Shown here in pieces: positions 12,566-20,339 of a stretch of DNA of 20,477 bases. The notes under the pieces were generated by a model, which worked only from the letters and a program-made list of their open reading frames with translations, was not told where the DNA came from and ran no database searches. The first letter of the stretch is position 1, and every line of letters begins with the position of its first letter. The position numbers were made by a program, and so were the translations under genes. The stretch spans positions 1 through 20,477 of the forward strand of contig DAIBYH010000001.1 of NCBI GenBank assembly GCA_027424065.1, in the 5' to 3' direction. The stretch is from Candidatus Parcubacteria bacterium (lineage in GTDB: Bacteria; Patescibacteriota; Minisyncoccia; UBA6257; 2-01-FULL-56-20).

Positions 12566-12596
12566 GAAGTCGGACATCGCGGCGATGTCCGACTTC
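12566..12596. repeat. 31-bp palindrome, copy 1
   Basis: GAAGTCGGACATCGC, one G, and GCGATGTCCGACTTC form a perfect 15-bp inverted repeat. The same 31 bp recur at 19975-20005 and 20304-20334. This copy lies in the lepA-khpA spacer, without the flanking sequence shared by the other two. It has no T-tract. Confidence 0.95.
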
Positions 12597-19961: not shown

Positions 19962-20010
19962 CCGTGCTTCTGCCGAAGTCGGACATCGCGGCGATGTCCG
20001 ACTTCAACCC
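19962..20010. repeat. 49-bp direct repeat with 31-bp palindrome, copy 2
   Basis: CCGTGCTTCTGCC, the 31-bp palindrome (19975-20005) and AACCC. It is identical over 49 bp to 20291-20339 and in the same orientation; the two copies bracket the tRNA and the candidate small RNA. Confidence 0.95.
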
Positions 20011-20027
20011 TCTCTTTCGCGCCCGCG

Positions 20028-20099
20028 TGGACCCTGCGGGATTCGAACCCGTATCGTCGGGTTGGTAAGACCGACATCCTACCGTTAGACGAAGGGCCC
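20028..20099 (-). tRNA. tRNA with atypical anticodon arm, isotype uncertain (Val UAC by standard numbering)
   Basis: The 72-nt cloverleaf reads: acceptor GGGCCCT/AGGGTCC with one G-U pair; D arm GTCT/GGAT with A14, A15, G18G19 and A21 in place; T arm CGGG/CCCG with loop TTCGAAT; discriminator A; no encoded CCA. The anticodon arm is odd. TCGGT faces ACCCG(A), which leaves either a C28-C42 mismatch or a bulged C. The standard 7-nt loop is CTTACCA, giving anticodon UAC with C at position 37, where a purine is expected. An 8-nt loop CTTACCAA with a UACC quartet, or an ACC (Gly) reading, is also possible; A73 argues against Gly. An extended -10 promoter lies 20 nt upstream. It could be a working tRNA-Val, a specialised tRNA or a decaying copy. 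Confidence 0.75.
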
Positions 20100-20118
20100 G
20101 TATCACGCGGGCTCAAAA

Positions 20119-20127
20119 ACTATAACA
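20119..20127 (-). promoter_or_regulatory. Extended -10 promoter of the atypical tRNA
   Basis: On the minus strand TGTTATAGT ends about 20 nt before the mature tRNA 5' end. The -35 is weak. It lies downstream of the terminator of the candidate small RNA, so the two RNAs would be transcribed separately. Confidence 0.6.
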
Positions 20128-20151
20128 ACGTCAGATTAAAATATCTTAAAC

Positions 20152-20178
20152 AAAAACGGCCCCTAAGGAGCCGTTTTT
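20152..20178 (-). terminator. Intrinsic terminator of the candidate small RNA
   Basis: AAAAACGGC and GCCGTTTTT form a 9-bp perfect stem, with TTTTT at the end on the minus strand. The symmetric flanks would allow termination in either direction. Confidence 0.85.
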
Positions 20179-20225
20179 GCACCAACCCGACGATATTCAT
20201 CCTGCGATCACAGGATGTCGGTCTT
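20152..20225 (-). ncRNA. Candidate 74-nt small RNA with permuted complements of the tRNA anticodon arm
   Basis: The unit is defined by a TTGACA-16-TATCAT promoter with the predicted start at about 20225 and an intrinsic terminator ending at 20152. The RNA begins with AAGACCGACATCCT, the exact 14-nt complement of tRNA positions 21-34. A hairpin CATCCTG-TGATCG-CAGGATG overlaps it, and then comes TATCGTCGGGTTGGT, the exact 15-nt complement of tRNA positions 35-49. The terminator hairpin follows two bases later. The two complements are contiguous in the tRNA but in swapped order here, so the RNA cannot form one continuous antisense duplex. Each arm can pair separately, bringing the RNA 5' end next to the end of the second arm. 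ACCGAC/GTCGG pairing inside the RNA is also possible. No ORF is present. Expression and function are unproven. Confidence 0.6.
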
Positions 20226-20232
20226 CAAGGTT

Positions 20233-20260
20233 ATGATATATCTTAGCCTGACCATGTCAA
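20233..20260 (-). promoter_or_regulatory. Promoter of the candidate small RNA
   Basis: On the minus strand a consensus TTGACA (20255-20260), a 16-nt spacer and TATCAT (20233-20238) place the start 7-8 nt downstream, at the first base of the tRNA-complementary arm. Confidence 0.68.
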
Positions 20261-20290
20261 ATCAGCTTTAATCCTTTTTTAATTCCATAG

Positions 20291-20339
20291 CCGTGCTTCT
20301 GCCGAAGTCGGACATCGCGGCGATGTCCGACTTCAACCC
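20291..20339. repeat. 49-bp direct repeat with 31-bp palindrome, copy 3
   Basis: Identical to 19962-20010 over 49 bp; the palindrome is at 20304-20334. It lies 18 nt downstream of the glycosyltransferase stop. Confidence 0.95.

Follow-up and report, generated by a model that had tools for sequence, protein, structure and literature searches.

All-RNA toxin-antitoxin pairs, classed as type VIII, include SdsR/RyeA and CreTA, and the CreT toxins of two haloarchaea act by tRNA sequestration (PMC9424990; PMC9458426). The locus described here resembles these pairs, as they are outlined in those reports, in that two small RNAs lie at one place and one of them likely silences the other. In the outlines given there, SdsR is encoded inside RyeA on the opposite strand and CreA acts through Cascade, whereas the present genes follow one another in tandem, with a permuted antisense and a tRNA-like RNA as its target. 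Type VIII pairs are the nearest described systems in proposed manner of action.

Classical cis-encoded antisense RNAs have covarying partners, pair from a loop and are encoded opposite their target. The small RNA (sRNA) of the present locus shares with them antisense pairing, covarying partners and probably a start of pairing at a loop, and differs in lying beside its target, not opposite it, and in being permuted (only genome G523 has a colinear form). In T-box riboswitches a leader RNA pairs with the anticodon arm of a tRNA, a likeness to the pairing proposed here; a T-box reading was rejected on the grounds that there was no Rfam T-box match at the loci scanned and that the sRNA precedes a tRNA-like gene with a likely promoter of its own. 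In H/ACA RNAs the 5′ guide binds on the 3′ side of the target site, and this reading was also rejected, the opposite arm order being favoured in 29/29 pairs. Two short guide arms around a hairpin, as in the sRNA, are a feature of H/ACA, box C/D and TIGR dual-spacer guides (PMC12045711). TIGR-Tas systems have a guide array with a Nop-domain protein; they differ from the module loci, where no array or recurring neighbour protein was seen (75 flanking ORFs scanned).

The window, by which we mean the whole 20,477-nucleotide stretch analysed, comes from a Candidatus Parcubacteria bacterium (contig DAIBYH010000001.1). The bacteria of its host group are small and for the most part uncultured, and little is known of their RNA biology. 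The locus has what looks like a two-RNA system present in many Parcubacteria-type bacteria and previously unnamed, in which one RNA would hold the other in check. The first gene of this module probably encodes a short antisense RNA, and the second, downstream and with a likely promoter of its own, a tRNA-like RNA (Table 1).

Table 1. Predicted features of the two-gene RNA module in the window
Feature	Position	Strand	Basis
Predicted antisense sRNA (arm 1, inner hairpin, arm 2, terminator)	~20226-20151	minus	sequence; covarying relatives
sRNA promoter P1: UP-like TTAAAAAAGGATTAAA 20267-20282, -35 TTGACA 20255-20260, -10 TATCAT 20233-20238	20233..20282	minus	sequence
Arm 1 AAGACCGACATCCT, complement of tRNA-like nt 20-33	20212..20225	minus	exact match; covariation
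Inner hairpin ATCCTG-TGATCG-CAGGAT	20199..20216	minus	fold; covarying hairpin in relatives
Third segment GGATGAA, can pair with tRNA-like nt 7-13 (20087-20093)	20196..20202	minus	register by eye
Arm 2 TATCGTCGGGTTGGT, complement of tRNA-like nt 34-48	20181..20195	minus	exact match; covariation
sRNA intrinsic terminator (hairpin 20179-20151)	20148..20179	minus	fold, sequence; covarying stem in relatives
Extended -10 TGTTATAGT, likely promoter P2 of tRNA-like RNA	20119..20127	minus	inferred from sequence
Leader GCCCGCGTG, complementary to trailer 20021-20029	20104..20112	minus	sequence
Alanine-type tRNA-like RNA (ARAGORN: tRNA-Val(TAC))	20028..20099	minus	ARAGORN, identity elements, comparison with the genome's tRNAs
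Trailer CACGCGGGC pairing with leader; overlaps last 2 nt of tRNA-like RNA	20021..20029	minus	sequence

The sRNA is predicted to start at about 20226, with arm 1, hairpin, arm 2 and terminator following the promoter in that order, and 51 nt separate its terminator stem from the start of the tRNA-like gene. The initial annotation of this DNA had proposed a small RNA gene with two arms, 16 nt apart, that are exact complements of stretches of the neighbouring tRNA gene and pair with it in permuted order. This proposal is upheld, including the swapped order of the arms; the tRNA stretches that it numbered 21-34 and 35-49 are nt 20-33 and 34-48 in plain numbering. The break does lie inside the anticodon, as had been claimed, TAC being nt 33-35 and the arms splitting between 33 and 34. 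The proposed TTGACA-16-TATCAT promoter is also present (20260-20233), matching the consensus at 11 of 12 -35/-10 positions and preceded by the UP-like element. The terminator, described there as perfect, has a hairpin that both inspection by eye and the fold show to be near-perfect, but it was absent from a simple terminator scan.

The same annotation had called the matches unlikely by chance, and this judgement stands: about 1.6e-4 matches are expected for a single 14-mer in the space considered (equal base frequencies), and two such matches together with a promoter are far rarer. A rearrangement could perhaps yield inverted pieces of a tRNA gene, so that the locus would be a decayed inverted duplication without function, or else a product of chance. 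Covariation in many separate modules refutes both, and we give them practically no weight.

More loci were found in genome G001, of the same genus, and in the family genomes G012 and G006. In a scan of 38 family genomes the UP/-35 pattern (at most 2 mismatches) turned up at 80 places, spread over 13 genomes; only part of these places are this sRNA, and the reversed control gave a single place. The sRNA model R1, built from 20 sRNA genes, gave matches at E<=0.001 in 16/244 genomes of the order, non-members included. The pair model R2, built from 17 complete pairs, included the arms as sequence and not as pairs. At E<=0.001 it matched in 239/244 genomes of the order, mostly at apparent ordinary tRNAs, and E<=1e-13 was therefore used afterwards; this gave matches in 29/383 class genomes and 2/379 in a phylum-wide sample (the window's genome is counted in both). 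The tRNA-like model R3 at E<=1e-16 gave 44 hits in 33/373 class genomes. An exact pattern found eight loci in named genomes: two in Azambacteria, two in one Sungiibacteriota genome, one each in Yanofskybacteria and Harrisonbacteria, and two in further MAGs. These four named groups are Parcubacteria-type Patescibacteria. By eye, all eight have an antisense gene upstream; they repeat modules already in the sample and are not extra evidence. Two candidates, L147 and L148, were rejected as family members by eye.

Both partners look like RNA genes, since their structures covary: the hairpin and terminator stem of the sRNA do so among relatives, as do the acceptor, D, anticodon and T stems in 48 aligned tRNA-likes. 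Among the loci scanned, Rfam gave only RF00005 (generic tRNA) at thresholds and otherwise weak chance matches. There was no recurring neighbour protein among 75 of 93 flanking ORFs at 30 loci, the commonest Pfam family occurring in 4 members (among 25 of 62 families listed). Three exact patterns of the module had no match in IMG/VR, and the window's module had no blastn match in phages or plasmids, searches that divergent copies would escape. At one locus (L197, G366:C17) there are two near-identical copies of the module 1,027 bases apart with a protein gene between them, either a duplication or an assembly artefact. At another (L267, G259:C25) the inner sRNA hairpin is much longer and both arms still match the tRNA-like RNA, so hairpin length seems free.

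The arms change in step with the tRNA-like RNA. Among the first 18 pairs, of which G001e is without a T arm, the mean duplex energy is -38.7 kcal/mol for partners and -18.4 for the remaining combinations. All 18 show the permuted order, and none of 100000 random assignments attains the sum observed. By row the partner ranks first in 14/18 cases, by column in 17/18; the window's ortholog accounts for one of the four row misses, and in the other three similar arms of other genomes are preferred. In the arm columns 85.1% of cells are paired, compared with 64.9% when shuffled and 33-52% when slid. A blind set, the 29 distinct of 31 R2 hits (R2 having no arm pairs in the model), behaves in the same way, with means of -34.3 for partners and -14.7 for others. 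Here the partner is best in row in 25/29 cases and in column in 24/29, and in all 29 the permuted arrangement is favoured over the swapped one.

For 56 modules from 40 genomes the permuted duplex reaches -35.9 kcal/mol with partners against about -16 with non-partners, and the partner is best in 46/56 rows and 46/56 columns across all genomes. Arms drifting without matching changes in the tRNA had been named beforehand as evidence against the pairing. The arms withstand this check, and within its own genome the partner gives the best energy in 56/56 cases. Among non-partner energies, 121/3080 reach the value of the weakest partner, and pairing with non-partners is not weaker within a genome than between genomes (-18.4 vs -15.6), so selection for orthogonal pairs is not supported. 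Five further tests give -33 to -44; among them, L213 repeats the module of L256, and for L268 a non-partner (-34.1) does as well as the partner (-33.4). Counting pairs without gaps was discarded as a partner test, being too permissive to separate partners. In the window the sRNA duplex reaches -53.1 with its own tRNA-like RNA, against -27.6 for the best of 27 ordinary tRNAs.

The tRNA-like RNA carries alanine identity elements. G3.U70 is found in 44 of the 48 aligned tRNA-likes (A-U in three, G-C in one) and A73 in 46. The outermost anticodon pair is broken in 21/48. The anticodon loop is mostly of 9 nt by eye, and the triplet within it varies (UGC, CGC, UGA, UGG, UAC and others), that of the window being UAC. 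A hairpin and T run follow the tRNA-like gene in 27/31 hits. At the elbow, position 55 of the T loop covaries with position 18 of the D loop: U55 goes with G18 in 10 and G55 with A18 in 35, with three exceptions; from this paired switch the L-shape seems to be under selection. The elbow switch from G18/U55 to A18/G55 is in itself covariation of a tertiary contact.

A G3-U70 pair moved into other tRNAs turns them into alanine acceptors, as reported in PMC6515474. The ordinary tRNA-Ala genes of the window's genome have G3.U70 and an acceptor similar to that of the tRNA-like RNA, while its ordinary tRNA-Val genes have G3-C70. The initial annotation had treated the partner as a working tRNA. A tRNA-Val role is not borne out for this alanine-type extra, whose 'anticodon' varies among relatives and beside which a separate ordinary tRNA-Val(TAC) gene (68.6 bits) exists elsewhere in the genome, as do tRNA-Ala genes. 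That ordinary gene and the G3.U70 versus G3-C70 difference rule out a part as the normal or only decoder of GUA. From its sequence the RNA appears to be an extra tRNA-like with alanine identity elements, descended from tRNA-Ala, and the module would be the first RNA pair known to us with an alanine tRNA-like target. It is also a warning that some annotated 'extra tRNAs' in such genomes may not be decoders.

Alanine identity and a division into two pieces might suggest a tmRNA substitute or a two-piece tmRNA. tmRNA, its two-piece form included, does have a tRNA-like RNA with an alanine identity pair (PMC3985003; PMC6515474). Unlike tmRNA as described in these sources, the window-type RNA is about 72 nt long and includes a D stem, an anticodon arm and a variable anticodon, and an ordinary tmRNA is present besides. 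The tRNA-likes gave only weak tmRNA matches under the cut-off, as ordinary tRNAs do, with real tmRNA elsewhere in the genomes. Since ordinary tmRNA is found over the cut-off in 35/38 family genomes, the window's own included, we consider a tmRNA role highly improbable.

Selection on alanine identity and on the cloverleaf would also fit a useful alanine donor, for instance in non-ribosomal alanine transfer, whose level the sRNA tunes or whose anticodon arm it keeps off ribosomes. The variable anticodon, which suggests that the tRNA-like RNA does not decode, also speaks for a donor. Its patchy distribution (33/373 class genomes), the lack of a recurring neighbour family and the retention of the sRNA where the tRNA-like RNA is lost (see below) argue against this explanation, which we regard as unlikely.

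Comparison reveals three covarying complementarities between the two RNAs. Across the class set, the sRNA hairpin has a 3′ strand (AAACTACGGGC) that can pair with tRNA-like nt 3-13. This third segment has 87.4% of cells paired, against 82.8% shuffled and 27-49% slid; its pairing is largely conserved sequence, and two of five covariation measures are not above shuffles. Its energies are -14.0 for partners, -11.1 for others and -4.6 for shuffled strands (0/20000 permutations), and it is weak in the window (-7.3) and stronger in many relatives. The leader (CGTGGAYCC) of the tRNA-like gene has a complementary run of at least 7 with the 3′ acceptor strand in 39/48 tRNA-likes, compared with 4.5% of shuffled leaders; the window is among the 9/48 with a shorter run. 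In the leader columns 79.2% of cells are paired, 22-43% when slid and 76.6% when shuffled.

The arms and third segment are antisense, in order, to about nt 33-20, 13-3 and 48-34, which makes the layout a circular permutation of a plain antisense. The sRNA thus appears to be antisense, in circularly permuted form, to the 5′ two-thirds of the tRNA-like RNA. We know of no earlier antisense RNA in which the complement of the target is circularly permuted. Among the titles and abstract openings of the open-licence literature searched, there was no trace of this RNA pair or of a permuted antisense as a principle.

The permuted order would let both arm helices end near the tRNA body, as judged from the topology, and could therefore serve a lasting complex of the two RNAs, with side-by-side helices on a folded tRNA body and a cellular task. 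The stems of both RNAs are kept by covariation and the elbow covaries too. The third segment, however, would open the tRNA body by pairing with the acceptor/D strand, and sRNAs persist without a tRNA-like partner. Moreover, in G523 the permuted antisense is replaced by a colinear one: its tRNA-like gene has no sRNA upstream, and the gene downstream, with promoter and terminator by eye, is antisense through 14 nt against tRNA-like nt 29-42 and 12 nt against nt 13-24 (whole duplex -63.9 kcal/mol). We judge a structural complex of this kind improbable. G523 is the only colinear case among the modules seen, and as its antisense is directed at the same kind of RNA, the constant feature seems to be antisense pairing and not the padlock order. 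The padlock geometry of the initial annotation is thus not essential.

Loss of the two genes is one-sided. Every one of the 44 R3 hits in the 373 class genomes has an antisense partner, which is permuted and lies upstream in 43 cases and is colinear and lies downstream in one. The tRNA-likes used to build R3 had partners themselves, which biases this count. The fairer figure is therefore that for tRNA-likes that R3 added to the pair hits, 8/8 with a partner, three from the 40-genome set and five from class genomes; in one of them (L270 in G506) the 3′ acceptor end is damaged. In the 40 genomes, chosen for sRNA or pair hits, 52 R3 matches of at least 64 bits are among the matches listed. Below them come a gap and then, from 61.6 bits down, presumed ordinary tRNAs (not each checked); among the matches listed, one true tRNA-like (G001:C2) falls below the gap, at 60.9 bits. 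In the window's family all 15 tRNA-likes have a partner, and by eye 9/24 sRNAs of at least 60 bits have no intact tRNA-like RNA behind them; the 24 are the 26 R1 hits less L058 and L092, set aside by eye as another sRNA kind. This is the pattern that would be expected of an antidote outliving its target, with the target not kept without the antidote. sRNAs lacking a partner could also mean that the sRNA regulates other RNAs and that the tRNA-like RNA titrates it. Outside the tip, however, no arm sequence is common to the lineages that could serve outside targets, and neither alanine identity nor an elbow or cloverleaf would be needed in a sponge, so we think this very unlikely. At one partnerless sRNA (L052, 1042 onward; G001:C7:16114) a different unusual tRNA-like follows, and by eye the arms do not match it.

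The explanation we favour, by a modest degree, is antisense sequestration of an alanine tRNA-like RNA, probably as an all-RNA toxin-antitoxin-like pair. Sequestration itself is likely on the sequence evidence, and a toxin-antitoxin consequence is the leading but unproven interpretation. Blocking or sequestering the tRNA is the only role listed in the initial annotation that fits; guiding cleavage or modification finds no support. We infer that the sRNA binds in the cell, with first contact probably at the anticodon loop, from where pairing would spread and open the anticodon arm, the D stem and the 5′ strand of the acceptor. In most relatives the freed 3′ acceptor strand could then pair with the leader. 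The opened RNA would be unable to mature, to be charged with alanine or to enter the ribosome, whereas the free RNA would presumably be alanylated and could mis-decode or block translation. The energy balance is a point against this mechanism: some 37 kcal/mol would be needed to open the two RNAs (means 25.3 and 12.0) and about 48 gained, with loop and tertiary costs still to be added.

More tentatively, and with slightly less than an even chance in our view, the module may be an all-RNA addiction or control module of the Parcubacteria group, in which an RNA derived from tRNA-Ala harms translation when free, the permuted antisense unfolds it and the leader takes the freed 3′ acceptor strand. 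We count against the preferred sequestration explanation that copies were not found in the phage, virus and plasmid searches above, where an addiction module might be expected. The strong non-partner energies, the lack of weaker non-partner pairing within genomes and the weak third segment of the window count against it too. The module is scattered through its host group with no recurring neighbour protein, and the covarying pair is testable in E. coli.

Other RNAs lie behind the same type of UP-element promoter. A second, larger structured-looking RNA, of 130-170 nt by eye, was seen at L046 (two copies), L044, L077, L079 and L103, so that G006 and G017 have two each and G033 and G007 one each; at the gathering threshold Rfam gave no match to it. 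At L056, L095 and L098 there is a third small RNA kind (CATGCTCGCGGG...GGCGGGCAT), also without an Rfam match. Short sRNAs with the promoter and a terminator and without the arm pattern occur at L080, L082, L088, L058 and L092, some of which may be diverged antisense genes. In the window the module is flanked on both sides by exact 48-nt direct repeats containing a GAAGTCGGACATCGC palindrome (19962-20009 and 20291-20338), and a further copy of this palindrome lies at 12566.
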